From an uncultured Oscillospiraceae bacterium (lineage in GTDB: Bacteria > Bacillota > Clostridia > Oscillospirales > Oscillospiraceae), in the NCBI GenBank assembly GCA_934565775.1, contig CAKTIN010000043.1, positions 1-16,257 on the forward strand: DNA of 16,257 nucleotides, given 5' to 3'. Of the stretch, positions 1 to 15,151 are shown in pieces. The translations under genes were made by a program, and so were the position numbers. Position 1 is the first letter of the stretch, and each line of letters starts with the position of its first letter. The notes below the pieces were generated by a model. It did no database searches. It was not told where the DNA came from and saw nothing but the letters and a program-made list of their open reading frames with translations.

Positions 1-1767
1 ATACACATAGCCGATCACGGAGCCCAGGCCGCCCAGAACCATGTTGTCGCTGTAGAAGTCGTTGGCGTCAATGGTGTTGTCCAGAACGGGAGAGTTCTTC
101 TTGTTGGTCAGCAGGACGATGACCAGATCGTTCTCGGGATCGATCACGGTCAGGGTGCCGGTCCAGCCCTGATGGCCGATGGTGCTGCCGGAGGCATGGG
201 TGGTGAAGTAGCCATACCGGCCGATCTCGGCCTGCCGCCACCAGCCCAGGCCCCAGGTGGGGTAAGCCAGGCTCTTGGCCTTGGTGAATTCGTCGATGGT
301 GTTCTTGGAGAAGAAGCGGTGCTCGCCATAGCCGCCGGTGAGCATCACGCTGGCCAGCTTGGCCAGATCCTCGGCGTTGGAGAACATACCGGCGTGGCCG
401 GAGATACCGCCCATGGCATAATAGGCCTTCTCATCGTGGACCTCGCCCTGCACGGTCGCGGTACGCACGTTCTTGAAGGAGATGATGCCGTCCCGGGTGT
501 TGCCCTGGAGCTCGGTGGCCGCACAGTCGTTCTTCGTGAAGCCGTTCTCCAGAGGATTGTAGGTCACGTGGGTCAAGCCCATGGGATCCCAGAAGGTCTC
601 CTTCAGGAAAGCGTCCAGGCGCTGGCCGGTGATCTGCTCGATGATGAAGCACAGCAGCATGTAGTCCACATCGGAGTACACGGTCTTGGTGCCGGGCTCA
701 TAGGTCAGGGGAGAGGCCAGAACCATGGTCCGGGTGGTGTCCCGGTCCTGGGAGAACAGGGGGTTCGCAACACCCTGCGCCGGCTTCTGGGTCACCTGGT
801 TAAACTGATCGTTGTGATACTGGGGATCGGGATCAAAGCCGGCCTGGTGCATGAGAATATCCCGCACAGTGAGCTCGGCCTTCCAGGCCAGAATCTGAGC
901 CTTCTGCTCCTCCGTGGTGTTGGCCTTGAAGATCGTCTTGCCTTCCTGGGCAAATTCCGGGAAGAAGGAGGTGATCTTCGCGTCCAGGTCAACCTTGCCC
1001 TGATCGTACAGGTACTGCAGAGCGTAGTTCACGGAGTACATCTTGGTGTTGGAGGCCAGGTCGTACAGGGTGTCCGTGGTCACGGGGACGTAGTCCTCGC
1101 TGCCGGGGAGGATCCGGGTGCCGTCGGCGTGATAGCCGTTGGCAGCGCCCCAGGCCTCATTGACCACCAGGCGGCCTTCCTTGATGACGGCCAGCTGCGC
1201 GCCGCTGAAGCCGTACTTAGTTTCGGCGCTGATGTAGTCCCCGACCAGATCCATGATGTCCTGGTCCATACCCACATCCGCCAGGCTGCCGCTGATGACG
1301 GTGGGATAGGGGATGGAGACGGTCACGGCCTCAGCCAGAGCGGCGGGGGCGATGTTGGTCACCTGAATGGTGTTGGTGCCGTCCAGCGTGATGTCGGAGA
1401 TGTCCACGCGGTAAGTGCCGCCGGCGGGCATGGCGCCGGTGTCCATTTCCACGTTGTTCACGAACATCCGGAAGGACTCCACGCCGGAGGCGACGGTGAC
1501 GTACAGCTCTCCCTGACCGGAGAAGGTCGTGAAGCTGTACAGACTGTTCATGGCCAGGGTGTCATCCACATAGCCGTCCCAGTCGGGGAAGGAGACGACA
1601 TCCTGCCAACCCTGCTCGGGCAGGCTGGCCGGGGTAATGCCGCCGTGAAGATAGGCGCTTGCCGCGCCGGTGGTCTGACCGACCGCTGCCGCAGGGCCGA
1701 TTGCAGCAAATAGCATTACTGCGGCCAGGGCAAAGCCGATCACTCTGCGAAGTTTCGTTTTTAACAT
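1..1767 (-). CDS. Exported beta-lactamase-family serine hydrolase (AmiE/PBP4*-like), 3' end cut by window edge
   Basis: An open frame of 589 codons runs from ATG at 1767 to the window edge without a stop, so the C-terminus is missing. A signal peptide is visible: basic MLKTKLRR, a hydrophobic stretch and an AAA cleavage site near residue 28. Residues about 35-165 look like a beta-rich jelly-roll domain. The rest is the class C beta-lactamase/penicillin-binding fold: S239-N-T-K242 (SxxK nucleophile), Y364-S-D366 (YxN/YxD element) and H532-Q-G534 (KTG-box equivalent). The RBS AAGGGAG precedes the ATG. In Bacillus subtilis the murQ-murR-murP cluster contains AmiE (YbbE), a protein of this fold that removes peptide from MurNAc. 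Proximity to murR/murQ here suggests a similar exported muropeptide amidase. An esterase or DD-peptidase is also possible. The fold is secure; the substrate is inferred. Confidence 0.85.
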   Translation of the reverse strand, partial: MLKTKLRRVIGFALAAVMLFAAIGPAAAVGQTTGAASAYLHGGITPASLPEQGWQDVVSFPDWDGYVDDTLAMNSLYSFTTFSGQGELYVTVASGVESFRMFVNNVEMDTGAMPAGGTYRVDISDITLDGTNTIQVTNIAPAALAEAVTVSIPYPTVISGSLADVGMDQDIMDLVGDYISAETKYGFSGAQLAVIKEGRLVVNEAWGAANGYHADGTRILPGSEDYVPVTTDTLYDLASNTKMYSVNYALQYLYDQGKVDLDAKITSFFPEFAQEGKTIFKANTTEEQKAQILAWKAELTVRDILMHQAGFDPDPQYHNDQFNQVTQKPAQGVANPLFSQDRDTTRTMVLASPLTYEPGTKTVYSDVDYMLLCFIIEQITGQRLDAFLKETFWDPMGLTHVTYNPLENGFTKNDCAATELQGNTRDGIISFKNVRTATVQGEVHDEKAYYAMGGISGHAGMFSNAEDLAKLASVMLTGGYGEHRFFSKNTIDEFTKAKSLAYPTWGLGWWRQAEIGRYGYFTTHASGSTIGHQGWTGTLTVIDPENDLVIVLLTNKKNSPVLDNTIDANDFYSDNMVLGGLGSVIGYVY

Positions 1768-1822
1768 CGAAAAGCTCCCTTCTTGTGTTGTTTTCGCGGT
1801 GGCCCGCGGACTTCTACTTGGA

Positions 1823-1851
1823 AGTATATCAAGATGCACATTTTTCTGCAA
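1823..1851 (-). promoter_or_regulatory. Promoter of the serine hydrolase gene
   Basis: On the minus strand, TTGCAG (1851-1846) and TATACT (1828-1823) are separated by 17 bases. This predicts a transcript start near 1816 and a leader of about 50 bases before the ATG at 1767. The gene is therefore probably transcribed separately from the murR operon, which ends at the terminator just upstream. Confidence 0.6.
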
Positions 1852-1931
1852 GAGGCTGGGGAAACCTTGGTACAATATTACCACAACTTGAAATTTAATG
1901 ACCTGAAGATGAGAATTCTTTGAAACTTTTT

Positions 1932-1946
1932 TCCAAACGGTTTGGA
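1932..1946. promoter_or_regulatory. 15-bp palindrome, candidate operator
   Basis: TCCAAACGGTTTGGA is a perfect 7+1+7 palindrome. It lies between the murR terminator and the serine hydrolase promoter, about 80 bases upstream of the -35. The central AAACGGTTT fits the core of LacI/CcpA-type operators (AANCGNTT), but the outer bases do not match the CcpA cre consensus. Function is inferred only. Confidence 0.35.
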
Positions 1947-1955
1947 GCAGTACAG

Positions 1956-2007
1956 AAAAAGAGCAGGGCGGCAGATTTCCAATATCTGGAAATCTGCCGC
2001 CCTGCTC
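1956..2007 (-). terminator. Rho-independent terminator of the crr-ptsH-ptsI-murR operon
   Basis: Perfect 20-bp arms (1961-1980 and 1988-2007) enclose a 7-base loop. On the minus strand the stem is followed by a run of five T (1960-1956). It begins 14 bases after the murR stop codon and separates this operon from the serine hydrolase promoter. Confidence 0.93.
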
Positions 2008-2020
2008 CGGTGCTTGCCGG

Positions 2021-2866
2021 TTAAGGCGTAGGCTTCTTGATGTGGGTCTTGGAGAGCTGCTCCAGGCAGCGCTCATATTCGCTGTTGGCAAAGGCTGTGT
2101 ACAGAATGTCGATGATATTCAGCTGAGAGATCCGGGAGGACATGGCGCCGCTGCGGAAGATGGATTCGTTGGCGGTGGTATAGAGCTTGTAGTTCGCCAG
2201 CTCCGCCACCGGGGAGTTCACGCAACGGGTAATGGCAATAATGGGGGTGTGGTTCTCCTGCATGGCCTTCATGCACTCGATGACCTCCACGGTGTTGCCG
2301 GAGTAGGAGATGACAATCCCCAGATCCTGGGCGCAGGTGTTCCGGGCCTGAAGAAGCTGGGAGTGCCAGTCCTCGTTGATGACGCAGGGCTTGTTCAGCC
2401 GGAGAAATTTCAGATAGGCGTCCTTCGCCGCACACAGCGACGCGCCCATGCCGAACAGCAGCACCATGCGGCAGTTGCGGATCAGCTCCACGCACTTGCC
2501 CAGAGTCTCGGTGTCCAGCAGGTTTTTCGTGTCCTCCAGGGACATGATATTCTTGTAGGTGATTTTTTCGACAATATCCTCCAGACTGTCGGAGCGGGTG
2601 ATCTCCTTCTGGGCGCTCTCCTCGTTCTGCCGCCGGATGGCCATTTCGTAGGTGACGGCCTTTCGGAACTCCTTGAAGCCCTCAAAGCCCACCCGGTGGC
2701 ACATCCGGATGATGGTGGAGGGAGAGGAGAAGGTCCGCTTGGCGAGCTCATGAATGCTCAGGTCGATCACGTCCTCCGGATGCTGAAGGAGGTAGTCCGC
2801 AATTTCCCGCTCGGTGGGGCTGATCGTGCTCCGGGACTCCCGGATTCGCAGCAGCGCGCTTTTCAT
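2021..2866 (-). CDS. murR: RpiR-family transcriptional regulator, MurR-like
   Basis: This 281-residue protein has the RpiR layout. An N-terminal helix-turn-helix domain (about 1-77, including the recognition segment around SSPSTIIRMCHRVGF) is followed by a C-terminal SIS sugar-phosphate-binding domain (about 107-260). The SIS signatures G139-M-G-A and S188-Y-S-G-N-T are visible. MurR proteins bind MurNAc-6-phosphate through the SIS domain and control murQ/murP genes. It is the last gene of the crr-ptsH-ptsI operon: only 13 bases, with an AGGTGG ribosome site, separate it from the ptsI stop. The divergent murQ-murP-mupG operon is the obvious target, and autoregulation is likely. The family is certain; the ligand is inferred from neighbours. 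Confidence 0.9.
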   Translation of the reverse strand: MKSALLRIRESRSTISPTEREIADYLLQHPEDVIDLSIHELAKRTFSSPSTIIRMCHRVGFEGFKEFRKAVTYEMAIRRQNEESAQKEITRSDSLEDIVEKITYKNIMSLEDTKNLLDTETLGKCVELIRNCRMVLLFGMGASLCAAKDAYLKFLRLNKPCVINEDWHSQLLQARNTCAQDLGIVISYSGNTVEVIECMKAMQENHTPIIAITRCVNSPVAELANYKLYTTANESIFRSGAMSSRISQLNIIDILYTAFANSEYERCLEQLSKTHIKKPTP

Positions 2867-2879
2867 GGCTCCACCTGCC

Positions 2880-4514
2880 TTACGGGACCTGCCGCTCCAG
2901 CAGACGGCGCTTGACCGGCAGAATTTTGCCGGGGACCATGGACAGCTCGTCTACACCCAGCTCCGCGAAGAAGCCGGAGAGGGTCTCGTCCGCCGCAAGC
3001 TCGCCGCAGATGCCGACCCAGATTCCGGCCCGGTGCCCCTCCTCCACGGTCCGGCGGATCAGCCGGAGGACGGCGGGGTGATGGGGATCGCAGAACGGAC
3101 CGATGGCGGGATTCTGCCGGTCCGCCGCCAGGGTGTACTGGGTCAGGTCGTTGGTGCCGATGCTGAAGAAATCCACCTCCGGGGCAAACTGATCCGCAAG
3201 GACCGCCGCCGCAGGGGTTTCGATCATCATGCCCAGGGGAACCTCTCGGAAGGCCACGCCCTCGGCGGCCAGCTCCTGGCGGACCTGGGCGCAGAGCGCC
3301 TTGATCTGCTGAATCTCCCCCAGAGAGGCAATCATGGGGAACATGACGGACAGATTGCCGAAGGCGGAGGCCCGGTACAGAGCCCGGAGCTGGGTGCGGA
3401 ATACCTCCGGCCGGGTCAGGCAAATGCGGATGGCCCGCAGGCCCATGGCGGGGTTCTCCTCCTTGGGCAGGTCGAAGTAAGACGCCTGCTTGTCCGCCCC
3501 GATATCCAAGGTGCGCACCACCACGGGGCGCTGGCCCATGGCTTCAAGAACCTGCCGGTAGGCCTGGAACTGCTCTTCCTCCGAGGGGAAGTCCTCCCGG
3601 CCCAGATAGAGGAACTCGCTGCGGAACAGGCCAATGCCGTCGGCGTCCGCCTGGCTCACCGCCTCCAAATCCTTGGGAGAGCCGATGTTGGCGCACAGAA
3701 GGATCCTGCGGCCGTCGGCGCCGGTGGCGGGAACGCCCCGGTACTGCTCCGCCAGACGGCGGTTCTCTTCCCACTGGGCCCGGCGCTGCTGCAATTGCGC
3801 CAGCGTCTGACCGGCAGGGTCCAGATAGACCTCGCCCGTGCCGCCGTCTACCCAGGCGGTCCTGCCCGCCTGGTCCGGCCGAAGCTGGCTGCCCAGAGCC
3901 ACAACGGCGGGGATGCCCATGGTCCGGGCAAAGATTGCCGTGTGGGAATTTCCCGTGCCCTGGGCCGTGATAAAGGCGCGGACCCGGCTCCGGTCCAGCC
4001 GTGCAGTCTCGCTGGGGGCCAGGTCATCCGCAGCCAGGATCACCGGCTCGCCCTCTGCGGGCAGCGCGTCCTCCCCCCGGCCCAGCAGCAGCCGGACCAC
4101 CCGGCGGGAGATGTCCCGGACGTCCGCCGCCCGGGCCTGCCTATCCGCGTCGTCCATGGCGGCAAACATCAGGGCCAGATCCTCCCCGGTCTGCCAGACG
4201 GCATAAGCCGCGTTCCAGTGCTCCTCGGTGATGTGCTGGGTCACGCCGTCCACATAGTCCGGATCGTCCAGCATCATCTGGTGGATCTGGAAGAGCAGCG
4301 CCTGCTCCTGGCCCAGGGTGGCGGCGGCCTCCGCCTCCAGCCGACCCAGGGCCTCAACGGCCTGGGACTTGGCCTGCTGGAACCGCGTCAGCTCCGCAGC
4401 CGGATCGGTGACCTTGTTATGGGGAATCTCATCCTCCCGGCGGAGGAAGAAGAGGGGGCCGGAGGTCACACCGCCGGAAACACCGTTCCCCCGGAGAAGC
4501 TCCATTGTCTCCAT
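2880..4514 (-). CDS. ptsI: Phosphoenolpyruvate-protein phosphotransferase (PTS Enzyme I)
   Basis: Enzyme I takes phosphate from PEP onto a histidine and passes it to HPr in the cytoplasm. With ATG at 4514 the protein has 544 residues, slightly short of the usual 570 or so. The N-terminal HPr-binding and phosphohistidine domain contains GNSH191TAIFART, with H191 as the active-site histidine. The PEP-binding barrel shows LFRSEFLYL, EENPAMGLRAIR, FSIGTNDLTQY and, near the C-terminus, the conserved cysteine in GICGELAAD. The start at 4514 is preferred over ATG 4505 because GAGG lies about five bases upstream. The gene begins 7 bases after the ptsH stop and is followed 13 bases later by murR. The usual GGxTSH is GTGNSH here, a variant I recall from clostridial EIs. 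Confidence 0.96.
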   Translation of the reverse strand: METMELLRGNGVSGGVTSGPLFFLRREDEIPHNKVTDPAAELTRFQQAKSQAVEALGRLEAEAAATLGQEQALLFQIHQMMLDDPDYVDGVTQHITEEHWNAAYAVWQTGEDLALMFAAMDDADRQARAADVRDISRRVVRLLLGRGEDALPAEGEPVILAADDLAPSETARLDRSRVRAFITAQGTGNSHTAIFARTMGIPAVVALGSQLRPDQAGRTAWVDGGTGEVYLDPAGQTLAQLQQRRAQWEENRRLAEQYRGVPATGADGRRILLCANIGSPKDLEAVSQADADGIGLFRSEFLYLGREDFPSEEEQFQAYRQVLEAMGQRPVVVRTLDIGADKQASYFDLPKEENPAMGLRAIRICLTRPEVFRTQLRALYRASAFGNLSVMFPMIASLGEIQQIKALCAQVRQELAAEGVAFREVPLGMMIETPAAAVLADQFAPEVDFFSIGTNDLTQYTLAADRQNPAIGPFCDPHHPAVLRLIRRTVEEGHRAGIWVGICGELAADETLSGFFAELGVDELSMVPGKILPVKRRLLERQVP

Positions 4515-4521
4515 TGCCGCC

Positions 4522-4779
4522 TCACAGATTCTCCCGGAAGAAGGCCTCCAGGGCGGATACGGCCTGGGCCTCATCGGGACCCTCGGCGGTCAGGGTAACG
4601 GTGTCGCCCTGCTTCACGTTCAGACCCATCAGGGCGAACAGGCGCTTCAGATCGGCGGCCTTCTCTCCCTTGGTCAAGCGAATGCTGCTGGAAAAGCCCT
4701 GAGCGGCTTTCACGAGCAGCCCGGCGGGGCGGGCATGGATTCCGTTGGGGTCCTGGATGGTGTAGGTAAACTGGGTCAT
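4522..4779 (-). CDS. ptsH: Phosphocarrier protein HPr, lacking Ser46
   Basis: This 85-residue HPr carries phosphate from Enzyme I to EIIA. The active-site motif GIH15ARPAG is intact. The region that normally reads like K-S46-I-M-G-V-M-S-L is K45-R46-L-F-A-L-M-G-L. The serine phosphorylated by HPr kinase in Firmicutes is therefore arginine, and Ser52 is glycine. The catalytic role should be normal, but Ser46 phosphorylation, and with it CcpA partnering, is not possible through that residue. The ATG at 4779 follows AAAGGAG, 17 bases after the crr-like stop. The next gene, ptsI, starts 7 bases after the HPr stop, implying translational coupling. Confidence 0.96.
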   Translation of the reverse strand: MTQFTYTIQDPNGIHARPAGLLVKAAQGFSSSIRLTKGEKAADLKRLFALMGLNVKQGDTVTLTAEGPDEAQAVSALEAFFRENL

Positions 4780-4796
4780 TTTTATTGGCTCCTTTC

Positions 4797-5306
4797 TCAG
4801 CCTTCTTTTTTCTGAAGGGTCAGCAGCGCCTCGCCCGGGGCGATCTCTCCGGGGGCGGCGGTTTCCATGGTGAATTCGTCTCCGTTGCAGACGATGACCG
4901 GGGTGGTCAGGTCAAAGCCCAGGGCCAGAAGGGCCTCCCGGTCAAACTCCAGCAGGAGTTGGCCTTTCTTGACCAGATCCCCTTCCTTGCAATGCAGGGT
5001 AAAATGCTTGCCGCCCAGGGAGACGGTGTCCCGGCCCACGTGGATCAGAATTTCCACACCCAGGTTCTTGGTGGTCAGGCCCAGGGCGTGCCCGGTGTCC
5101 ATGAGGTTTTCAATCTTGCCGTCCGCCGGGGCGTAAAGCTGGCCCTCAGACGGGATGACGGCCATCCCGTCGCCCAGGACCTTGCCGGAAAATGTGGGGT
5201 CCGCAACCTCTTCCAGGGGAATGGACCGGCCGGACAGAGGGCTGCCGATCACCTCGGACGCGTCTTGCTGATGAAACAGGCGGGAAAGCCAACTCTCTTT
5301 TTTCAT
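4797..5306 (-). CDS. crr: PTS sugar transporter subunit IIA, glucose family (EIIA-Glc/Crr-like)
   Basis: This 169-residue EIIA-Glc-fold protein accepts phosphate from HPr and gives it to an EIIB domain. Both conserved histidines are visible: TGH73ALGL (accessory) and ILIH89VGRDTV (phosphorylated), matching H75 and H90 of Escherichia coli EIIA-Glc. The core begins near residue 20 with SPLSGRSIPLEEVADPTFS. The frame stays open upstream to 5567, but ATG 5306 has a good AAGGAGTG site and the EIIA homology begins just after it. It is the first gene of the crr-ptsH-ptsI-murR operon. The divergent EIIBC permease has no IIA domain of its own. E. coli MurP has the same layout and depends on Crr, so this is its likely phosphate donor. 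Confidence 0.94.
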   Translation of the reverse strand: MKKESWLSRLFHQQDASEVIGSPLSGRSIPLEEVADPTFSGKVLGDGMAVIPSEGQLYAPADGKIENLMDTGHALGLTTKNLGVEILIHVGRDTVSLGGKHFTLHCKEGDLVKKGQLLLEFDREALLALGFDLTTPVIVCNGDEFTMETAAPGEIAPGEALLTLQKKEG

Positions 5307-5332
5307 TGCTGCGTTCACTCCTTTTATTCGTG

Positions 5333-5348
5333 GGAGCCGGGGGGCTCC
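5333..5348 (-). promoter_or_regulatory. GC-rich hairpin in the crr leader
   Basis: GGAGCC and GGCTCC (5333-5338 and 5343-5348) form a 6-bp stem around a four-base loop. It lies between the predicted crr operon start (near 5372) and the ribosome site. It could stabilise the leader or tune translation. No known riboswitch class is recognisable. Confidence 0.3.
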
Positions 5349-5378
5349 GGCGGCGGCTGCCGCTGTACTAATAAATTC

Positions 5379-5407
5379 AGTATAGCAACCGAAGTTTCGC
5401 CTGTCAA
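5379..5407 (-). promoter_or_regulatory. Promoter of the crr-ptsH-ptsI-murR operon
   Basis: On the minus strand, consensus TTGACA (5407-5402) and TATACT (5384-5379) are separated by 17 bases. The -10 is preceded by TGC, giving an extended -10 (TGCTATACT). The predicted start is near 5372, about 65 bases before the crr ATG. This close to consensus, it would need a repressor to be silent. Confidence 0.8.
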
Positions 5408-5422
5408 GACAATTAGGGAAAC

Positions 5423-5437
5423 AAAATTTGAAATTTT
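5423..5437. promoter_or_regulatory. AT-rich 15-bp palindrome, candidate MurR operator
   Basis: AAAATTTGAAATTTT is a perfect 7+1+7 palindrome located 15 bases upstream of the -35 of the crr promoter. RpiR-family proteins bind as dimers to such inverted repeats. Assigning it to MurR rests only on position between the two divergent mur operons. Confidence 0.4.
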
Positions 5438-5457
5438 TGGGCAATTGGCACAGGGAA

Positions 5458-5483
5458 ATGAAACGAACGGAATTCGGTTTCAT
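5458..5483. promoter_or_regulatory. 26-bp interrupted palindrome, candidate MurR operator
   Basis: ATGAAAC (5458-5464) and GTTTCAT (5477-5483) are perfect inverted arms around a 12-base spacer. The site lies about midway between the crr promoter and the murQ promoter at 5552. A dimeric or tetrameric regulator bound here could affect both. No direct evidence of binding exists in the sequence. Confidence 0.45.
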
Positions 5484-5551
5484 CATTTTGCACGAATAAG
5501 GGGAATATCTTCCAATATACGAAACTTTGTGCCGCAATCGGTGCTGGGATA

Positions 5552-5580
5552 TTGACATAAAGTGCAAGATTGGTTAGGAT
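5552..5580 (+). promoter_or_regulatory. Promoter of the murQ-murP-mupG-HAD operon
   Basis: TTGACA (5552-5557) and TAGGAT (5575-5580) are spaced by 17 bases. The predicted start is near 5587, giving a leader of about 70 bases with a short GGCAG/CTGCC complementarity before the AAGGAGG ribosome site at 5643-5649. Confidence 0.7.
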
Positions 5581-5655
5581 GAATATGCAAGGCAGCACTT
5601 GCTCCGTAGGCTGCGGTGGTCGGACGGTCCTGCCAACCCTGTAAGGAGGCTGTCT

Positions 5656-6552
5656 ATGAAACTGAACCTGGACAAAATGACAACGGAAACCAGAAACCCT
5701 GCCACCATGAACCTGGACCAGATGACGCCCCTGGAGATCGTTACGGCGATGAACCGGGAGGACGCCAAGGTGCCCGAGGCGATCCGGCCTCAGCTGCCGA
5801 AGATCGCGGAGGCGGTCCAATGGGCGATCGATGCGCTGAATGACGGCGGCAGAGTCTTTTATATGGGCGCCGGCACCAGCGGCCGCCTGGGTGTACTGGA
5901 CGCGGCGGAGTGCCCGCCTACCTTCGGTGTTTCGCCGGACCTGATTGTCGGCCTGATCGCCGGAGGCGAGACCGCTTTTCTGAAGGCGGTGGAGGGCGCG
6001 GAGGACAGCCGGGAGCTGGGCGCCGCGGACTTGAAGGACCATGGGCTGAAGGCCTGTGACCTGGTGATCGGCATTGCCGCCAGCGGGCGGACGCCCTATG
6101 TGCTGGGTGGCCTGGATTATGCCAAGCAGACCGGCTGCCGGACGGTTGCCATCTCCTGCAACGCGGGGGCGGCCATCAGCGCGGCGGCAGACCTGGCCAT
6201 TGAAGTGGTGCCCGGGCCCGAGGTCCTCACCGGCTCGACCCGTCTGAAGGCGGGCACGGCCCAGAAGCTGATTTTGAACATGATCTCCACGGCGACCATG
6301 GTGGGTGTTGGCAAGGCCTATCAGAACCTGATGGTGGACGTCATGCAGACCAATGAGAAGCTCCATGTGCGGGGCGAAAACATCGTCATGGAGGCCACCG
6401 GCGTGGACCGGCAAACCGCCCGGGCCACCATTGACGCCGCAGGCGGCAGCGTTAAGACCGCCATTACCATGATTCTGGCAGACTGCGACTGCCAGGAGGC
6501 GACCCGCCGCCTGGAAAAGGCGAAGGGCCACGTCCGTCAGGCTATCGTCTGA
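5656..6552 (+). CDS. murQ: N-acetylmuramic acid 6-phosphate etherase
   Basis: MurQ cleaves the lactyl ether of MurNAc-6-phosphate in the cytoplasm, giving GlcNAc-6-phosphate and D-lactate. The 298-residue length matches the family (about 300). The SIS-domain signature GAGTSGRLGVLDAAECPPTF (71-90) is intact. E85 and D117 correspond to the catalytic E83 and D115 of the E. coli enzyme. IAASGRTPYV (second sugar-phosphate segment) and TNEKLHVRG near the C-terminus are also typical. The start at 5656 follows AAGGAGG by 6 bases; the open frame extends upstream to 5599 but without a ribosome site or homology. It is the first gene of the plus-strand operon, divergent from the PTS/murR operon. Confidence 0.97.
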   Translation: MKLNLDKMTTETRNPATMNLDQMTPLEIVTAMNREDAKVPEAIRPQLPKIAEAVQWAIDALNDGGRVFYMGAGTSGRLGVLDAAECPPTFGVSPDLIVGLIAGGETAFLKAVEGAEDSRELGAADLKDHGLKACDLVIGIAASGRTPYVLGGLDYAKQTGCRTVAISCNAGAAISAAADLAIEVVPGPEVLTGSTRLKAGTAQKLILNMISTATMVGVGKAYQNLMVDVMQTNEKLHVRGENIVMEATGVDRQTARATIDAAGGSVKTAITMILADCDCQEATRRLEKAKGHVRQAIV

Positions 6553-6705
6553 CGCATGGGCAGGCCGGTGGATCCGGTGGGGCTGCACCGGAATTGGTTG
6601 CCCCGGCTTGTCTCCCATTGTACAAAGGCGGCTCACGGCTGCTTTTGCTGCTCCGCCCTGCGGAGCGCTTCCGTTTCCACATTAAATAAAGGAGAGGTGC
6701 AAAGA
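6553..6705 (+). other. Structured gap between murQ and murP
   Basis: These 153 bases hold no gene. They contain a perfect 7-bp hairpin, GCTCCGC/GCGGAGC (6650-6656 and 6660-6666, 3-base loop). A longer imperfect pairing lies just after the murQ stop, between the segment near 6557-6568 and the one near 6604-6618. Neither is followed by a T run, so they are more likely mRNA-stabilising or partial attenuation structures than terminators. No convincing promoter was seen. The murP ribosome site GGAGAGG lies at 6691-6697. Confidence 0.4.
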
Positions 6706-8133
6706 ATGACAAATCAGGAACTGTCCAGAAAGATTCTGGAGCTGGTCGGCGGCAAAGAGAACGTCACCAGCGCAACCAGCTGCATGACGCGGCTGCGTAT
6801 CACCCTTAAGGACGCCACCAAGGTCAATATGACCGCCCTTAAGAACACCGAAGGCGTGCTTGGCGTAGTGGAGGATGTCACCCTGCAGGTCGTCCTCGGC
6901 CCCGGCAAGGCCCGTAAGGTTTGCGATCTGTTCGTTGTGGACGCCGGTGTGAAGGGTATGAACACCGAGGCCACCTGGCAGGAGAATAAGGCCGCCATGA
7001 AGGCCGGTCAGAAGGATAACGCGCTGAAGCGCGGCCTGCGGACCATCGCCAGCATCTTCATCCCCATGATCCCCGCCATCATCGCTGCGGGCCTGTTTAA
7101 CGGCATTGCCAGCCTGCTGGGCCAGATCTTCGCCAATGACGCAAGCTATGCGGCAAAGACCGGCTTCTGGTTCGTATTCTCCCAGCTGTGCTCCCTGTTC
7201 GGCGCTTCCTTCCTGAGCTACTTCGCCATCTACACCGGCGTGAACGCGGCCAAGGTCTTTGGCGCGACTCCCGCTCTGGGCGGCATGATCGGCGGCATTT
7301 CCATCGGCTCTCAGATCGTTACCATTTCTACGGTCCTGGGTCTGTACAACGCGGAAGTTCCCCTGAACTCCATCCTCACCACCGGCAAGGGCGGCATCAT
7401 CGGTGTCATCCTGGGCGTGTGGATCCTGGCTCAGGTGGAGCGCTTCATCCGGAAGCACATCCCCGATGTTCTGGACCTGATTGTGACGCCTCTGGTTTCC
7501 ATCCTGCTGGTCGGCGCTCTGTACGTGTTCGTGCTGATGCCCATCACCGGCTATGTCTCCGACGGCCTGGTTTATGTCCTGAACCTGCTGGTCAGCTCCG
7601 CGAACCCCGTGGTCAGCGTGATCTCCGGCTATGTCCTGGCGGCTCTGTTCCTGCCCATGGTCTTGCTAGGCTTGCACCATGGCCTGATCCCCATCTACAG
7701 CGTGCAGCTTGAGGCCACCGGCGGCGTGTCCCTGTTCCCCGTGCTGGCTATGGCTGGCGCCGGCCAGGTTGGCGCTGCTCTGGCGATCCTCATCAAGGCG
7801 AAGAAGACCAAGAACACCCGCATGGAGAAGACCATCATCGGCGCTCTGCCCGCTGGCTTCCTGGGTGTTGGCGAGCCCCTGATTTACGGCGTTACCCTTC
7901 CCATGGGCAAGCCCTTCATCACTGCCGGCCTGGGCGCTGGCTTCGGCGGCGCGTTCGTGATGCTCATGGGCGTGCAGTCCATCGCTTGGGGCCCCTCCGG
8001 CCTGGTCGCAACTCCTCTGATGCGGACTCCCGCCATGATGGCCTGCTATGTGGGCGGCCTGGTGATCTCCTACATCATGGGCTTCATCATCACTTGGTTC
8101 GGCATCAAGGAAAAGGACGTTGCCAATGCCTAA
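6706..8133 (+). CDS. murP: PTS EIIBC permease, N-acetylmuramic acid type (MurP-like)
   Basis: This membrane permease takes up and phosphorylates its sugar. It has 475 residues, almost the same as E. coli MurP (474). The EIIB domain (about 1-90) has its phosphocysteine in SATSC26MTRLRI. A linker leads to an EIIC domain (about 105-470) of the glucose/beta-glucoside family with around ten hydrophobic segments and the GVGE390PLIYG signature of the substrate site. No EIIA domain is fused; the divergent crr-like gene can supply it. The start at 6706 has GGAGAGG upstream. Because it lies between murQ and mupG, MurNAc or MurNAc-GlcNAc is the likely substrate. By sequence alone a trehalose or sucrose EIIBC could not be excluded. 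Confidence 0.92.
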   Translation: MTNQELSRKILELVGGKENVTSATSCMTRLRITLKDATKVNMTALKNTEGVLGVVEDVTLQVVLGPGKARKVCDLFVVDAGVKGMNTEATWQENKAAMKAGQKDNALKRGLRTIASIFIPMIPAIIAAGLFNGIASLLGQIFANDASYAAKTGFWFVFSQLCSLFGASFLSYFAIYTGVNAAKVFGATPALGGMIGGISIGSQIVTISTVLGLYNAEVPLNSILTTGKGGIIGVILGVWILAQVERFIRKHIPDVLDLIVTPLVSILLVGALYVFVLMPITGYVSDGLVYVLNLLVSSANPVVSVISGYVLAALFLPMVLLGLHHGLIPIYSVQLEATGGVSLFPVLAMAGAGQVGAALAILIKAKKTKNTRMEKTIIGALPAGFLGVGEPLIYGVTLPMGKPFITAGLGAGFGGAFVMLMGVQSIAWGPSGLVATPLMRTPAMMACYVGGLVISYIMGFIITWFGIKEKDVANA

Positions 8134-9172
8134 TCGGCTAGGCTACTCTGTATACCTATCCACCTTCGGGGGCCAGCAGGATCTGCTGGCCCCTCTGGCG
8201 GGTAGTGGGGCTATGGTGTTTCTCTCCCTGCATATCAGCGAGGAGTTCGGCCCCGACTATTGTAGGCAGGCGGAGGAGGCCTGCCGTTGGCTCACCCAGC
8301 GGGACTTCCGGATCGTGGCGGACGTATCCGTCAAGACCCGGCAGATGTTCGGGGAGCCGGATCTGCTGAAGCTGGCCCGGCGGCTGGGGGTCTGGGCGCT
8401 GCGGATCGACTATGGCCTGGACCGGGAGGAGATCGAGACCCTGGCCCGGGAAATTCCCATTGTGCTTAACGCCTCTACCACGGACCCGGAGCAGGCGGCG
8501 GTCATTGCCGGAAGGGGGAAGCTGGTGATGGCCATGCACAACTTCTACCCCCGGCCGGAGACCGGCCTGGATGAGGCCTTCCTCCGGGAATCCACCCTGC
8601 GGCTGCAGGCGGCGGGGCTGAAGGTCCTGGGCTTCCTGCCCGGGGACCGGACGCTGCGGGGCCCCATCGGGGAGGGCCTGCCCACCCTGGAGGCCCATCG
8701 GGGGCTGCTGCCCTCGGCCTGCTTTGCGGACCTGGTCCTGCGTTTCGGCCTGGACGGCGTGTTCCTGGGGGACCCGGACCTCAGCGAGAAGGAACAGGCG
8801 CGGATCGATGGGTTCTGCGAGGACGGGATCCTGCGGGTCCCCGCCGTTCTGGAGCCGGAGTTTGAGGCTCTGTATGGCCGGGTCTTTACCAACCGGCCGG
8901 ATGCCCCGGCGGGGCTGGCGCGCTTTGAGGAATCCCGGACCTACTCCTGCATCGGCGGTCCGGTCGAGCCGGCGCATTGCGTCAACCGGAGCCGCGGGAG
9001 CATTACTATGGATAACAAGACCTATGGCCGCTATTCCGGGGAGATTCAGCTGACCCGGGCGGATTACCCGGCGGACCCCAGGGTCAATGTAATTGGGGCC
9101 GTACCCCGCAATGCGCTGCTACTGGCGGACTGCATCGGCCGGGGCAAGCGCTTCATGCTGGTCCGGCCCTAG
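8126..9172 (+). CDS. mupG: 6-phospho-N-acetylmuramidase, DUF871/GH170 family
   Basis: This 348-residue protein carries DUF871 signatures: LGYSVYLST near the start, MHNFYPRPETGLD in the middle, FLPGDRTLRGPIGEGLPTLE, and a C-terminal small domain around NKTYGRYSGEIQLTR. Staphylococcus aureus MupG (about 350 residues, GH170) hydrolyses MurNAc-6P-GlcNAc, produced by MurP, into MurNAc-6P and GlcNAc. A barrel domain (about 1-240) precedes the cyclophilin-like C-terminal domain. The ATG at 8126 overlaps the murP stop by 8 bases and AAAAGGA lies upstream, indicating translational coupling. Its place directly after murP supports the disaccharide as the transported substrate. Confidence 0.92.
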   Translation: MPNRLGYSVYLSTFGGQQDLLAPLAGSGAMVFLSLHISEEFGPDYCRQAEEACRWLTQRDFRIVADVSVKTRQMFGEPDLLKLARRLGVWALRIDYGLDREEIETLAREIPIVLNASTTDPEQAAVIAGRGKLVMAMHNFYPRPETGLDEAFLRESTLRLQAAGLKVLGFLPGDRTLRGPIGEGLPTLEAHRGLLPSACFADLVLRFGLDGVFLGDPDLSEKEQARIDGFCEDGILRVPAVLEPEFEALYGRVFTNRPDAPAGLARFEESRTYSCIGGPVEPAHCVNRSRGSITMDNKTYGRYSGEIQLTRADYPADPRVNVIGAVPRNALLLADCIGRGKRFMLVRP

Positions 9173-9186
9173 GGAGAAACAAAGCA

Positions 9187-10020
9187 ATGGAAATTCGTAT
9201 GATCTGCATGGATCTGGACGGCACCGCCCTTCAGGCGGACGTCCGGTCCTTTTCCCCCCGGCTGAGCCGGGTCCTGCTGGAGGCACACCGGCGGGGCGTT
9301 GCCGTGACCCCGGTCACCGGGCGGCAATTTGTGCTCCTGCCGGAGCCGGTGCGCTGCCATCCCGCTTGGGAGGGATTGGCGGTGCTGTGCAACGGCACGG
9401 AGGTCCGCCGCCTGGCGACGGGGGAGGTCCTGGCGGAAAAATATATGCAGCCGGAGAGCCTGTTGGCGGTTCTGGATGTGGCGGAGAAGTTTTCCCTGTC
9501 CATGGAGCTGTCCAGCGGCGGGACGCTGCACCTGACCCGGGAGGCCCTGGAGCGGGAACAGCGCTTTGGTTATGCCTTCCACCAGACGGTGCTGGACACC
9601 AACGGGAAATGCGTGCCGGATCTGCGGGCATTCTGCCTGGAGAGCCGGAAGCCGGTGGAAAAGGTGAACCTACTGTGTGTGCTGCCGGAGCGCAAGGCGG
9701 AGGTGGAGCGGGCCCTGGGGGCGCTGCCCTTTACCTGGTCCTGGTCCTCGGACAGCAGCATAGAGCTCACCCGGCGGGACGCCGATAAGGCCAGCGGAAT
9801 GCTTCAGGTCTGTGCCATGCTGGGCATCGCCCCGGAGCAGGTCCTGGCGCTGGGGGACAGCGGAAACGACATTTCCATGCTCCGCAGCGCGGGGCTGGGG
9901 GTCGCCATGGGCAATGCGCCGGAGGAGGTCCGGGCGGCGGCCAGAGCGGTCACCGGCACCAATGTAGACGACGGCGCTGCCGCCGCCATAGAGCGCTATG
10001 TGCTGCAAAAAATGGGGTAA
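9187..10020 (+). CDS. HAD-superfamily hydrolase, Cof-type (class IIB)
   Basis: This 277-residue phosphatase-like protein has all four HAD motifs: D9-L-D11-G-T (nucleophile and acid), T44 in VTGR, K201 in DADKASG, and GDSGND (223-228). The large insert between motifs II and III is the class IIB cap of Cof/YidA-type sugar phosphatases. It follows mupG by 14 bases with an AGGGAG site, and a terminator comes directly after, so it is the last gene of the MurNAc operon. A role in dephosphorylating an amino-sugar phosphate (MurNAc-6P or GlcNAc-6P), as an overflow valve, is an inference. Cof-type enzymes are promiscuous and the substrate cannot be read from sequence. Confidence 0.9.
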   Translation: MEIRMICMDLDGTALQADVRSFSPRLSRVLLEAHRRGVAVTPVTGRQFVLLPEPVRCHPAWEGLAVLCNGTEVRRLATGEVLAEKYMQPESLLAVLDVAEKFSLSMELSSGGTLHLTREALEREQRFGYAFHQTVLDTNGKCVPDLRAFCLESRKPVEKVNLLCVLPERKAEVERALGALPFTWSWSSDSSIELTRRDADKASGMLQVCAMLGIAPEQVLALGDSGNDISMLRSAGLGVAMGNAPEEVRAAARAVTGTNVDDGAAAAIERYVLQKMG

Positions 10021-10027
10021 ATAGGAG

Positions 10028-10063
10028 AAGGCCGGCAAGCAGGATTCTGCTTGCCGGCCTTTT
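10028..10063 (+). terminator. Terminator of the mur operon, possibly bidirectional
   Basis: Perfect 15-bp arms (10028-10042 and 10047-10061) enclose a four-base loop, followed by a short T run ending at 10063. It lies between two convergent genes (HAD and PHP) and probably serves both, though the T tract on the minus side is poor. Confidence 0.85.
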
Positions 10064-10079
10064 CGGGAAGATGGCGTTC

Positions 10080-10757
10080 TTACGCCTCTTTGCCCAGCAG
10101 GGTAAACTGCCGGGAACGCAGGAGCCGGGCCAGTCCCATGGAATCCGTGGGGAGCTTCTCCGCGCCGATGCCGCCTAGGGCCAGGTCCTGGGTGCGGTGG
10201 CAGTCTGAGCCGCAGAGCCCGATCAGACCAAACTGCCGGGCGTAAGCCGCCGCCCAGGAATTGTGGCTCTCATGCCGGGGGTGAAGATTCCGGACCTCCA
10301 CGCCGTCCAAATACCGGGCAATGGCGGGGGTGCATTTCTCCCGGTAAGGGTGCGCCTGAATGAGCAGCGCCCCCTGTCCCCGGGCAATGGGGGAAAAAGC
10401 GGCGATCCCCATGGCAAAAATTTCATCCGGGTCCTCCAGCAGGGACTCCCGGAAGCCGTACAGCAGATAGTCGTTGTCGCACTCGTCAAAGCGCAGCTCC
10501 GCCCCCAGATAGACCCGCAGATTGTACTTCTTTGCCTCTTCCGCGACCCTGCGGTACCCCTCCAGGAAGGGACCGACCTTATCGCCCCCGGCCCGGAGGT
10601 CGATCTTCAAATAGTCAAAGGTGATGCGGTTGAAGTGATCGGTGACCACCAGGCCGCTGTATCCCGCTTCGGCATAGGCCTCGGCTATGGTTTTGGCGTC
10701 CAGATGGCCGCAGGCGCTGGCGTAAACGGTGTGCAGATGGGTTTCAATTTTGTACAT
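10080..10757 (-). CDS. PHP-domain metal-dependent phosphoesterase
   Basis: This 225-residue protein has the polymerase-and-histidinol-phosphatase metal-binding pattern: ETH7LH9T, TD40H41F, GAE87L, QAH136PYR and GSD185CH187. All usual ligands for the metal cluster are visible. Stand-alone PHP proteins include histidinol phosphatase and oligoribonuclease or nucleotide phosphoesterases. This one is near histidinol-phosphatase size but no histidine genes are nearby. AGGAGG precedes ATG 10757, and an upstream in-frame extension to 10982 would run through the promoters and is rejected. It has its own promoter, divergent from the malic enzyme. The substrate is unknown. Confidence 0.88.
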   Translation of the reverse strand: MYKIETHLHTVYASACGHLDAKTIAEAYAEAGYSGLVVTDHFNRITFDYLKIDLRAGGDKVGPFLEGYRRVAEEAKKYNLRVYLGAELRFDECDNDYLLYGFRESLLEDPDEIFAMGIAAFSPIARGQGALLIQAHPYREKCTPAIARYLDGVEVRNLHPRHESHNSWAAAYARQFGLIGLCGSDCHRTQDLALGGIGAEKLPTDSMGLARLLRSRQFTLLGKEA

Positions 10758-10915: not shown

Positions 10916-12088
10916 ATGGATTACGCAAAGGAATCCCTGCGTCTGCACAAGGAGTGGGGCGGTAAGATCGAAGTTGTGGCAAAGGTTCCCGTGGAGACCA
11001 AGGACGACCTGTCCCTGGCCTATACCCCCGGCGTTGCCCAGCCCTGCCTGGAGATTCAGAAGGATATTGATCAGTCTTATGTGCTGACCCGGCGGCATAA
11101 TCTGTGCGCCGTGATTACCGACGGCTCCGCGGTCCTGGGCCTGGGGGATATTGGGCCTGAGGCCGGTATGCCGGTCATGGAGGGCAAATGCGTCCTGTTC
11201 AAGGCCTTCGGCGGCGTGGATGCCTTTCCCCTTTGCGTAAAGACGAAGGATGTGGATGAGTTCGTCAACACCGTATATCTGATCTCCGGATCCTTCGGCG
11301 GGATCAACCTGGAGGACATTGCCGCCCCCCGGTGCTTTGAGATTGAGCGGAAGCTGAAGGAAAAGTGCGACATCCCCGTATTTCACGACGATCAGCACGG
11401 CACCGCCGTCATTACCCTGGCAGGGCTGACCAATGCGCTGAAGGTCGTGGGGAAGAAGAAGGAAGAGGTGAAGATCGTGACCTCCGGCGCAGGCGCTGCG
11501 GCGATCTCCATCGTAAAGCTGCTGCTGTCCGCCGGATTCCGGAATGTGGTCATGACCGACCGGAAGGGCGCTATCTACCAGGGCCGGGAGGGCCTGAACT
11601 GGATCAAGGAGGAGATGGCCCAGGTGACCAACCGCGCCATGGAGAAGGGCTCCTTGGCGGAGGTCATTCGCGGGGCGGATGTGTTCATCGGCGTGTCTGC
11701 GCCGGGGACCTTGACCACGGACATGGTCAAGACCATGAACCGGGACGCCATCGTCTTTGCCTGCGCCAACCCCACCCCGGAGATCTTCCCGGATGAGGCC
11801 AAGGCGGGGGGCGCGGCAGTGGTCTCCACCGGCCGCAGCGATTATCCCAACCAGATCAACAATGTGCTGGCCTTCCCCGGCATTTTCCGGGGGGCGTTCG
11901 ATGTGCGGGCCAGCGACATCAACGAGGAGATGAAGATGGCGGCAGCCCATGCACTGGCGGAGCTGATCTCCGATGAGGAGCTGAGCCCGGAGTATATCAT
12001 CCCCAAGGCCTTTGACAAGCGGGTGGGGCCCGCTGTGGCGAAGGCGGTGGCGGAGGCGGCCCGGCGCACCGGCGTTGCCCGCATCTAA
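10916..12088 (+). CDS. NAD(P)-dependent malic enzyme (oxaloacetate-decarboxylating)
   Basis: Malic enzyme converts malate to pyruvate and CO2 with reduction of NAD(P). The 390-residue protein is of the short bacterial type. Visible elements are the catalytic Tyr in AY36TPGVA, the catalytic Lys in MEGK91CVLFK, metal ligands in NLE133D134 and HD158D159QHGTA, and the Rossmann loop SGAGAAA (190-196). FACANPTPEIFPDEA and YPNQINNVLAFPGIFRGA are strong family signatures. AAAGGAG lies upstream of ATG 10916. It has its own promoter and terminator, so it is a single-gene unit. No link to D-lactate from MurQ is visible beyond proximity. NAD versus NADP use cannot be decided. Confidence 0.97.
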   Translation: MDYAKESLRLHKEWGGKIEVVAKVPVETKDDLSLAYTPGVAQPCLEIQKDIDQSYVLTRRHNLCAVITDGSAVLGLGDIGPEAGMPVMEGKCVLFKAFGGVDAFPLCVKTKDVDEFVNTVYLISGSFGGINLEDIAAPRCFEIERKLKEKCDIPVFHDDQHGTAVITLAGLTNALKVVGKKKEEVKIVTSGAGAAAISIVKLLLSAGFRNVVMTDRKGAIYQGREGLNWIKEEMAQVTNRAMEKGSLAEVIRGADVFIGVSAPGTLTTDMVKTMNRDAIVFACANPTPEIFPDEAKAGGAAVVSTGRSDYPNQINNVLAFPGIFRGAFDVRASDINEEMKMAAAHALAELISDEELSPEYIIPKAFDKRVGPAVAKAVAEAARRTGVARI

Positions 12089-12106: not shown

Positions 12107-12140
12107 CCTCCGGCGGGATTCCCCGCCGGAGGACGTTTTT
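12107..12140 (+). terminator. Terminator between malic enzyme and flavoprotein genes, probably bidirectional
   Basis: Perfect 11-bp arms (12107-12117 and 12122-12132) enclose a four-base loop, with T5 at 12136-12140 on the plus strand. On the minus strand the stem is followed by GGCC then four T, so it may also end the convergent flavoprotein gene. Confidence 0.88.
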
Positions 12141-12759
12141 AGTGGTGGAAGCTGGTGATGAGATGGGGTTCCTTTTCCGGGAGGCCCAGGGCTTCTTTCC
12201 CAAGCTGAATGCTCTTCATCAAAAACGCCATATTTCGGCCCAACGTCCGCATGGTTTGCAGACCTTCCCGGTCCGCAAGGACCTCCTGGGGGGTGTTGCC
12301 GTAGACCATGTTCCAATACTGGCTGCTGGCAATGGGCATAGAGTTGATGGAAAAGTATTTGTTCAGCACGTCAAAGGAGGAGGTGTTGCCGCCCCGGCGG
12401 CAGGAGACCACGGCCGCGCCGACCTTCATGGTCTTGTCTACGCCTGCGGTGCTGTAAAACAGCCGGTCCAGAAAGGCAATCGCGCCGCCGGCGGGGGAGG
12501 CGTAATACACCGGCGCACCGATGACGAACCCGTCCGCCTCGGCCAGCTTCGGGGCGACCCGGTTGACGGCGTCGTCAAAGACGCACCGGCCCAGCTCCCG
12601 GCATTTGCCGCAGGCGATGCAGCCGTGGATGTCCTGATGGCCCACATGGATGAGCTCGGTTTCGATGCCCTCCGCCTCCAGCGTGCCCTGGAGCTCGGCC
12701 AGGGCGGTATAGGTGCAGCCCGTGGCATGGGGACTTCCGTTGATAAGCAGCGCTTTCAT
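12139..12759 (-). CDS. Iron-sulfur flavoprotein-like NADPH-dependent FMN reductase
   Basis: This 206-residue flavodoxin-fold protein begins MKALLINGSPHATGCT, the FMN-phosphate-binding loop. It has GAPVYYASPAGGAIAFLDR, the second FMN-contact segment of the reductase family. Four cysteines, C47-x2-C50-x2-C53-x5-C59, form the compact motif known from archaeal and clostridial iron-sulfur flavoproteins, where they bind a [4Fe-4S] cluster. It probably shuttles electrons or reduces small acceptors in the cytoplasm; the partner is unknown. AGGAG precedes ATG 12759 by 8 bases. Single gene, with its own extended -10 promoter. Confidence 0.88.
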   Translation of the reverse strand: MKALLINGSPHATGCTYTALAELQGTLEAEGIETELIHVGHQDIHGCIACGKCRELGRCVFDDAVNRVAPKLAEADGFVIGAPVYYASPAGGAIAFLDRLFYSTAGVDKTMKVGAAVVSCRRGGNTSSFDVLNKYFSINSMPIASSQYWNMVYGNTPQEVLADREGLQTMRTLGRNMAFLMKSIQLGKEALGLPEKEPHLITSFHH

Positions 12760-12791
12760 TCATACGACTCCTTTTCTCATAAGGTGCCATT

Positions 12792-12820
12792 ATTATACCA
12801 GATAAGACCCCGTTTGAAAA
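12792..12820 (-). promoter_or_regulatory. Promoter of the flavoprotein gene
   Basis: Minus-strand TATAAT (12797-12792) has TGG directly upstream (extended -10). The -35 at 17 bases is a weak TTTTCA (12820-12815) that coincides with the T tract of the preceding terminator. Confidence 0.6.
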
Positions 12821-12848
12821 GCCCTGCCGCATGGGATGCGGCAGGGCT
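12816..12848 (-). terminator. Terminator of the thiamine pyrophosphokinase gene
   Basis: Perfect 13-bp arms (12820-12832 and 12836-12848) enclose a three-base loop, followed on the minus strand by a short T run. It starts 5 bases after the thiN stop codon. Confidence 0.82.
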
Positions 12849-12852
12849 CCTG

Positions 12853-13467
12853 TCACGTTTCAGAGAGCAGGACGGCAAGGATCCCGGCCTGCACGGAGAG
12901 CTCCGCCGTCGATTCCCACTCGTTGCTGACCCCGATGGGGAAGCGGTTGGTCAGCTCGGCATTTACCAGGGGGTATTTTACGCCTTGAATGGTCACCCCC
13001 GTGCAGCGGTCGCTGAGGCTGAGCAGGGAGAGAGACCGGCCCGGCTGCGGAGGCAGGGTCAGGCTGCCGCTGCCCAAGAGATAGAGAGTGTCCCGCGCCC
13101 CAAGGATCGTTACCCGGGCCCCGCGCTCCACGGCGAAGGCCCCGGCCTGTAAATTCCCCAAAAGATGATCCAGCCGCCCGCCCAGGGCACAGTAGAGATA
13201 GATTTCCCCATAGCCGTGGGCCAGGGCCCAGCGCATGGCGGCCATGGTGTCCGTGTCGTCCTTCTCTCGGGGCAGGTCCAGAACGGGAATTTCCCCGGGG
13301 AGCGGCCCGGGAAAAGAGTCAAAATCTCCCACAAACAGCCCCGGCCGGATACCGGCCTGCTGCAAATAGAGGCAGCCCTTGTCGCAGGCAATTACCATGG
13401 ACGCACGGTCGATCCCGGTCAGCGGCCCGGGCTCTCCCCCGGAGACAATTGCACAAAGCTGTTCCAT
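12853..13467 (-). CDS. thiN: Thiamine pyrophosphokinase
   Basis: The enzyme transfers pyrophosphate from ATP to thiamine, giving thiamine diphosphate. This 204-residue protein carries the family motifs VGD48FD50SFP, EK69DDTD73T and GGRLDH (96-101); the aspartates bind magnesium and ATP. The C-terminal beta-rich thiamine-binding domain contains TGVTIQGVKYPL and ends with SNEW and a short strand. AGGAGG precedes ATG 13467. A longer open frame to 13707 exists but lacks homology and runs over the divergent promoter. In many Firmicutes this gene lies near ribosome-assembly or stk/prp genes; none are seen here. Confidence 0.95.
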   Translation of the reverse strand: MEQLCAIVSGGEPGPLTGIDRASMVIACDKGCLYLQQAGIRPGLFVGDFDSFPGPLPGEIPVLDLPREKDDTDTMAAMRWALAHGYGEIYLYCALGGRLDHLLGNLQAGAFAVERGARVTILGARDTLYLLGSGSLTLPPQPGRSLSLLSLSDRCTGVTIQGVKYPLVNAELTNRFPIGVSNEWESTAELSVQAGILAVLLSET

Positions 13468-13477
13468 AAAACCTCCT

Positions 13478-13500
13478 AAACGCCGATTCGGGCGTTTTTT
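13478..13500 (+). terminator. Short hairpin with T6 between divergent thiN and DivIVA-like genes
   Basis: AAACGCC and GGCGTTT (13478-13484 and 13491-13497) form a 7-bp stem whose plus strand runs into T6 (13495-13500). No plus-strand gene lies directly upstream, so it may insulate the following promoter from read-through. On the minus strand the same stem sits immediately before the thiN AGGAGG and could influence its translation. Confidence 0.5.
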
Positions 13501-13503
13501 CTG

Positions 13504-13532
13504 TTGTTTTTCCCAAAATACTATGGTATAAT
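13504..13532 (+). promoter_or_regulatory. Promoter of the DivIVA-like/TPR operon
   Basis: TTGTTT (13504-13509) and TATAAT (13527-13532) are spaced by 17 bases, with TGG directly before the -10 (extended). The predicted start is near 13539, 40 bases before the ATG. Confidence 0.75.
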
Positions 13533-13578
13533 GAAGTTTAGCAAAAAACCCTGTTATTTGTAGCGGAGGGAAGAAAAA

Positions 13579-15028: not shown

Positions 15029-15117
15029 TAGGAAGAGTATAGCACATTCTCGGAGAAAATGCCAGGGATTCTCCCGCCAGGGGGCAAAAGGGCGGATGCG
15101 AATTCGTGAAATTTTGC

Positions 15118-15146
15118 TTGCATATTTCCGAATTTTGTGCTATTCT
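15118..15146 (+). promoter_or_regulatory. Promoter leading into a hairpin RNA
   Basis: TTGCAT (15118-15123), 17 bases, TATTCT (15141-15146) with upstream TGC (extended -10). The predicted start at about 15152 falls on the first base of a long stem. Confidence 0.5.
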
Positions 15147-15151
15147 CTTAG

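Follow-up and report, generated by a model that had tools for sequence, protein, structure and literature searches.

A predicted MurNAc salvage locus that encodes its own EI, HPr and EIIA in an uncultured Oscillospiraceae bacterium

We report that contig CAKTIN010000043.1 of an uncultured Oscillospiraceae bacterium (assembly GCA_934565775.1; 16,257 nucleotides, the whole of which we call the window) encodes three components of the phosphoenolpyruvate (PEP)-dependent sugar phosphotransferase system (PTS), namely Enzyme I (EI), HPr and an Enzyme IIA (EIIA), inside a gene cluster of the N-acetylmuramic acid (MurNAc) salvage type. The genes form two divergent units, EIIA-HPr-EI-murR on the minus strand and murQ-murP-mupG followed by a haloacid dehalogenase (HAD) gene on the plus strand. 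The locus is probably a self-contained module for the uptake and catabolism of MurNAc or of its disaccharide with N-acetylglucosamine (MurNAc-GlcNAc), served by its own phosphate relay. This reading draws on gene content and order, signature residues, a distinct clade of EIs and recurrence of the arrangement in three other genomes, two of which have further EIs; the substrate, the path of phosphate, control by MurR and exclusive use of the relay are inferred.

Results

The relay proteins

We identified the domains of the window proteins by Pfam and NCBIfam profile searches. The minus-strand unit begins with a stand-alone EIIA of the glucose family (4797–5306; PF00358 at 2.8e-45), followed by HPr (4522–4779; PF00381 at 4e-30), EI (2880–4514, with an alternative start at 4505; 562 bits on TIGR01417, cut-off 342) and murR (2021–2866), with intergenic gaps of 17, 7–16 and 13 bp. 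These matches, together with those on the plus strand described below, confirm an earlier note made from the sequence alone, which had placed EIIA, HPr, EI and MurR on one strand and MurQ, a MurP-like EIIBC, MupG and a HAD hydrolase on the other. Alignment to solved relatives shows the phosphorylation histidine and active cysteine of EI, His15 of HPr and both histidines of EIIA to be in place.

Ser46 of Bacillus HPr is the residue modified by HPr kinase. An ungapped alignment to the HPr of PDB entry 1rzr places Arg at position 46 of the window HPr, in place of the serine that would mark a general PTS of the Bacillota, and the motif DLKRLFA with Arg46 is common to all four mur HPrs. Since Ser46 is absent, the classical repression signal should not run through this relay, as judged from the residue.

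Of 7998 EI relatives scored, the best 120 come from sources that include Oscillospiraceae bacterium, uncultured Pseudoflavonifractor sp. and Pseudoflavonifractor capillosus; leaving aside the window's own protein (100%) and one exception, they are 65–67% identical. The exception among these 120, P0002 at 53%, is an Enzyme I of 711 residues in which part of the PEP-binding domain is repeated, either a real duplication or an assembly artefact. We placed the mur EIs in a quick tree of 92 rows, which includes eight database proteins of unread gene context. The four mur EIs fall within a single 13-row clade (Shimodaira–Hasegawa-like approximate likelihood ratio test, SH-aLRT, 99) with these eight proteins and the EI of genome G657. 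The mur EI of G498 is at zero distance from P0083, a protein of an uncultured Pseudoflavonifractor sp., and the EI of a Pseudoflavonifractor isolate belongs to the same clade. The glucose-type EIs of G498 and G382 belong to a remote clade that also includes EIs from many relatives. The tree tool warned of odd composition in the window EI and of long branches, including those of G548 and G657.

In G657 the EI-HPr pair (L152:5474–9755) is flanked by nagA and by nagB, the latter divergent, and this context links the EI lineage to amino sugars. That genome has no match to PF02378 and none to PF00359 (PF03610 was not searched there), a pattern that would suit an EI and HPr acting mainly as a sensor that reports PEP supply or MurNAc flux through its state of phosphorylation, and not as a transport relay. 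In the window, however, an EIIA with both histidines accompanies an EIIBC lacking a IIA domain, and a transport chain is the simplest reading of this pairing, so that a sensor role is highly improbable.

The catabolic and regulatory proteins

On the plus strand, MurQ (5656–6552) scores 405 bits on TIGR00274 (cut-off 302), which identifies it as a MurNAc-6-phosphate etherase. The MurP-like EIIBC (6706–8133) consists of PF00367 and PF02378 only and has no IIA domain; among NCBIfam models it scores best on that of the MurNAc transporter, NF007152, with 338 bits, under the cut-off of 516. The overlapping mupG (8120–9172) encodes a 6-phospho-N-acetylmuramidase that matches both MupG_N and MupG_C (PF19200, PF05913). 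It is followed by a Cof-type HAD hydrolase (9187–10020) that scores under the cut-off of TIGR00099 and over that of Pfam Hydrolase_3. MurR, the last gene of the unit divergent from murQ, is an RpiR-family regulator with HTH_6 and SIS domains; it does not reach the E. coli MurR model NF012026 (137 versus 408 bits).

Five MurP relatives are 97–99% identical to the window protein and lie on contigs of at most 21.6 kb. MurP identity to the window is 52% in G382 and G498 versus 76–81% in G468, G446 and G207, and a MurP tree separates two types (SH-aLRT 99 for the second type, without G587). MurR is 77–79% identical in G468, G498 and G382, and MurQ and MurR of G382 and G498 are 79–84% identical to those of the window. 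The MurR tree groups G498 and G382 with G207 (81), G468 (73) and the window (51); both trees are small, quick and weak at the forks. On these comparisons the IIBC was apparently exchanged, with the relay left in place.

The sub-threshold MurP score would also suit a complete private PTS for another amino sugar or lactyl-ether sugar instead of MurNAc or MurNAc-GlcNAc, as would the occurrence in relatives of two MurP types, about 50–54% alike, beside similar MurQ and MurR, given that transporter specificity may vary. The adjoining MurQ and MupG nevertheless belong to families that act on MurNAc-6-phosphate (MurNAc6P) and MurNAc6P-GlcNAc in S. aureus (PMC6262408, accessible part), and we consider a different sugar improbable.

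We propose the following route. A surface enzyme of the PBP4B/AmiE type would trim muropeptides outside the cell. PEP would phosphorylate the linked EI, and phosphate would pass through the linked HPr and the linked EIIA to the IIB domain of MurP, which would import and phosphorylate the sugar. MupG would then cleave MurNAc6P-GlcNAc, and MurQ would convert MurNAc6P to GlcNAc-6-phosphate and lactate. MurR would control the transcription unit that encodes both itself and the relay, so that the relay would be made when the substrate is present. Where a genome has several relays, the linked one may be used privately, a specificity that sequence comparison does not reveal.

Conservation of the gene order

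We read the surroundings of the mur locus in eight genomes with a MurP match of 50–81% identity. The order murR-EI-HPr-EIIA divergent from murQ-murP is present in G468, G498 and G382 (loci L153, L154 and L155). PBP4B then follows murR in G498 and G382, mupG lies 3' of murP in G468 and G382, and in G498 the HAD gene lies 3' of murP, after which the contig ends. The G468 locus continues into nagB and nagA. Chance adjacency of general PTS genes, a candidate explanation, was ruled out by this recurrence in three other genomes, two of them close to each other. In G207, G306 and G009, murR is divergent from murQ-murP-mupG-HAD with no general PTS genes there, and G617 has a related locus, likewise without them, on a 6.2-kb contig. 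The Cof-type HAD gene also occurs at the mur loci of G382, G498, G446, G207, G306, G009 and G590.

We gauged the frequency of the arrangement in a family sample of 400 genomes, drawn evenly from a larger group. MurQ (matches at E <= 1e-60) was found in 33 of them, with 35 matches in total, and we read the surroundings of all 35 murQ loci, some of which are cut by contig ends. The earlier note had made its reading depend on conservation of the gene order in relatives; the order held in three genomes, though it is rare (3 of the 35 murQ loci in the 400-genome sample). MurQ, MurR and MupG had no match near EI in 80 named loci among the matches listed, many of them on short contigs, which is no proof of rarity.

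A second form occurs in G548, where one row of genes on C66 (L236:2435–8838) encodes a mannose-family EIIA, IIC, IID and IIB, an RpiR regulator, MurQ, EI and HPr. The EI of G548 lies in another part of the EI tree, on a long branch. A private relay has probably become joined to a murQ-linked PTS on at least two occasions. G446 also has a second murQ (L252), next to a gene for a mannose-family EIIA, and the 19 kb read there contain no EI match. As a separate observation, the combination of a mannose-family PTS, an RpiR regulator and MurQ in G548 and G446 may represent a second transporter type for a lactyl-ether amino sugar.

EI, HPr and EII counts in relatives

We counted EI, HPr and EII domains in relatives, in assemblies of unstated completeness; the EII families counted were PF02378, PF00359 and PF03610, with the galactitol, glucitol and ascorbate families outside the counts. 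G468, G498, G382, G446 and G207 have 1, 3, 4, 3 and 2 matches to the EI N-domain, 1, 2, 3, 8 and 9 PF02378 transporters, 0, 1, 3, 11 and 5 EIIA_2 domains (PF00359) and 0, 0, 0, 8 and 0 mannose-type EIIA domains (PF03610), respectively.

All seven EIs of G498 and G382 have an EII domain within about 4 kb, and all five PF02378 transporters of these genomes have an EI within about 4 kb. At G498 C24 and G382 C3 the nearby EII domain is EIIA_2 alone; a transporter was not looked for there. The arrangement in both genomes looks like one EI per EII. Because the other EIs lie near other EII domains, the mur EI is extra in G498 and G382 and is probably a dedicated relay. In G468 the sole EI is at the mur locus, and MurP is the sole transporter among the three EII families searched. 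In G446 and G207, whose mur loci lack an EI, PF02378 transporters outnumber EIs, by 8 to 3 and 9 to 2, respectively. The earlier note had proposed either a dedicated second relay or an only PTS devoted to wall sugars; both fit, the former in G498 and G382 and the latter in G468, and the proposal is supported in part, through the relatives. It had further reasoned that several other EIIs with no other EI would mean a general PTS, and this combination is absent from G468, G498 and G382 for the families searched. As a side observation, a match to the window EI at E <= 1e-60 is missing from 92 of the 119 relatives of G382 sampled, and many family members may lack a close ptsI.

These counts bear on the chief rival explanation, in which the EI-HPr pair of the window organism is its general PTS, merely adjoining the mur genes and feeding other transporters too. 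Other EIIs without their own EI are possible in the window organism, and C. glutamicum provides a precedent in which ptsI, ptsH and ptsF lie in a fructose cluster with ptsG and ptsS apart (PMC2222622, accessible part). In the three relatives with the same order, however, no orphan transporters of the families searched rely on the mur EI, and the relay shares a unit with murR, which points to expression tied to the substrate. We consider a general PTS rather unlikely, and prefer the self-contained module with its own relay.

Several observations weigh against that preference. The EI counts cover relatives only, and the window organism is represented by this stretch alone. EI lies beside murQ at only 4 of the 35 loci, three in the order of the window and one (G548) of the other type, and G498 and G382 are close relatives, so that the three same-order genomes count as about two lineages. 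The surrounding genes vary: mupG was not seen at the G498 locus, where the contig ends beyond the HAD gene, and PBP4B and HAD were not seen at the G468 locus. G446 retains EIIA in the same order but lacks EI and HPr, and G207 and G590 have similar mur genes without the EI-HPr block. G009 has a single, unlinked EI, on another contig with HPr and EIIA and in the glucose-type clade; MurP is the sole transporter of this genome among the three families, and linkage is thus presumably not needed for MurP to be served. The mur EIs alone do not form a clade, because the database proteins and G657 lie among them. Nor is exclusive use of the linked HPr supported: another contig of G468 encodes a further HPr, and six HPr matches, of which one is weak, occur in each of G498 and G382. 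Finally, Ser46 is absent from 11 of the 14 HPrs aligned, four of those 11 being mur HPrs; the others include the glucose-type HPrs of G498 and G382 and those of G207, G306, G009, G657 and G548, and the residue is present only at G498 C24, G382 C3 and G382 C10. Loss of Ser46 is therefore common in the group, is no mark of a mur relay and separates it poorly from a general PTS.

The surface hydrolase and other features of the window

Beside murR, the window edge cuts an exported serine hydrolase of the PBP4B/AmiE type (1–1767, minus strand, N-terminal part). The earlier note had called it AmiE-like; its presence stands, while PBP4B-type is the better name, as it passes model NF002968 (441 bits, cut-off 385). 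A 20-pair hairpin resembling an intrinsic terminator lies directly 3' of murR (1961–2007, minus strand, found by pattern match), and its position between murR and the hydrolase suggests that the latter is a separate transcription unit. The related open frames in G382, G498 and G446 span 1,617–1,851 residues. Those of G382 (L155:836–6388; 1,851 residues) and G446 (L156:3576–8657; 1,694 residues) encode very large surface proteins beside murR, each with two PBP4B/beta-lactamase-type domains and three S-layer-homology (SLH) repeats, and with an additional Exo_endo_phos domain in G382. The 591 residues of the window hydrolase align to both repeats of these relatives; the protein is presumably S-layer anchored as well, though its C-terminus lies outside the window.

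Promoter-like sites precede both units: TTGACA-17-TATACT on the minus strand (5379–5407), an 11/12 consensus match, upstream of EIIA, and TTGACA-17-TAGGAT on the plus strand (5552–5580), a 10/12 match, upstream of murQ. The EIIA-HPr-EI-murR unit is thus flanked by promoter-like (5407–5379) and terminator-like (2007–1961) sites. Across 1700–10200 we found 4 promoter-like sites against 1.7 expected in shuffles and 11 terminator-like sites against 7.1 expected; with counts this near to expectation, the sites are consensus matches and no evidence of function. A search for a shared MurR operator among palindromes of 11 intergenic regions gave none common to all, and a similar palindrome is shared only by the close pair G498 and G382. 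Arms ATGAAAC and GTTTCAT lie at about 5457–5482, in the interval that separates the promoter-like sites; they were noticed only by eye and, on a rough estimate, would arise by chance about once per two such regions.

Rfam and tRNA scans of the window returned no matches. A malic enzyme (10916–12088) is 88% identical to L238:4498–5667 in G622, about 4 kb from a different murQ, and the neighbourhood is perhaps shared. The flank at 12139–15919 is ordinary, with an FMN-reductase-type gene, a thiamine diphosphokinase, a protein without a Pfam match followed by a TPR protein, and a glyoxalase-family gene.

Discussion

In the usual description of the PTS, a single EI/HPr pair is shared by all transporters, and uptake is thereby coupled to catabolite repression. 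Characterized mur loci have the orders murR / murQ-murP-yfeW in E. coli, mupG-murQ-murP-murR in S. aureus and murQ-murR-murP-amiE-nagZ-ybbC in B. subtilis (PMC5061867, PMC6262408), yfeW (PBP4B) being part of the E. coli murQ operon (PMC5061867); the genes given for these loci in the accessible part of PMC5061867 include no EI or HPr. As far as these partial sources go, the window locus resembles all three in having MurQ, a MurP-like IIBC without IIA and a MurR-type regulator, and it shares MupG with S. aureus, a PBP4B/AmiE-type hydrolase with E. coli and B. subtilis, and a divergent murR with E. coli. Unlike them, it encodes EIIA, HPr and EI in the murR unit.

The accessible part of PMC2405797 describes EI and HPr of Firmicutes as having evolved mainly as one vertically inherited unit, together with fructose-class PTS clusters that have their own EI. 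Like these (FruB/FPr fusions, a plasmid cluster of Haloarcula marismortui), the window has a sugar-specific cluster carrying its own EI and HPr; whereas they combine a fructose-class transporter with partly fused multi-domain proteins, the window encodes separate proteins with a glucose-family EIIA and a predicted wall sugar. The joint encoding of EI, HPr and a glucose-type EIIA also recalls the general ptsHI(-crr) operon (ptsH-ptsI-crr in the same source). The window differs from it in being embedded among mur genes, in its HPr without Ser46 and in the further EIs near other EII domains in two of the three same-order relatives. In a search that covered part of the literature, we found no MurNAc PTS described as encoding its own EI and HPr. 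The locus thus combines a known pathway, MurNAc salvage, with a known principle, a sugar-specific EI and HPr, in a combination that we did not find described.

The S. aureus MurP needs a IIA in addition to general EI and HPr, and which IIA serves it is unclear in the accessible part of PMC6262408; the window EIIA provides a linked candidate for this partner. More broadly, and tentatively, some Oscillospiraceae-type bacteria may run a private, MurR-controlled relay for wall sugars that lies beyond HPr kinase, with one EI per EII and at least two origins (with the glucose-family MurP and with the mannose family), the sugar PTS of some lineages having shrunk to this relay. A private relay, if true, could uncouple the scavenging of bacterial walls from the catabolite-repression hierarchy.

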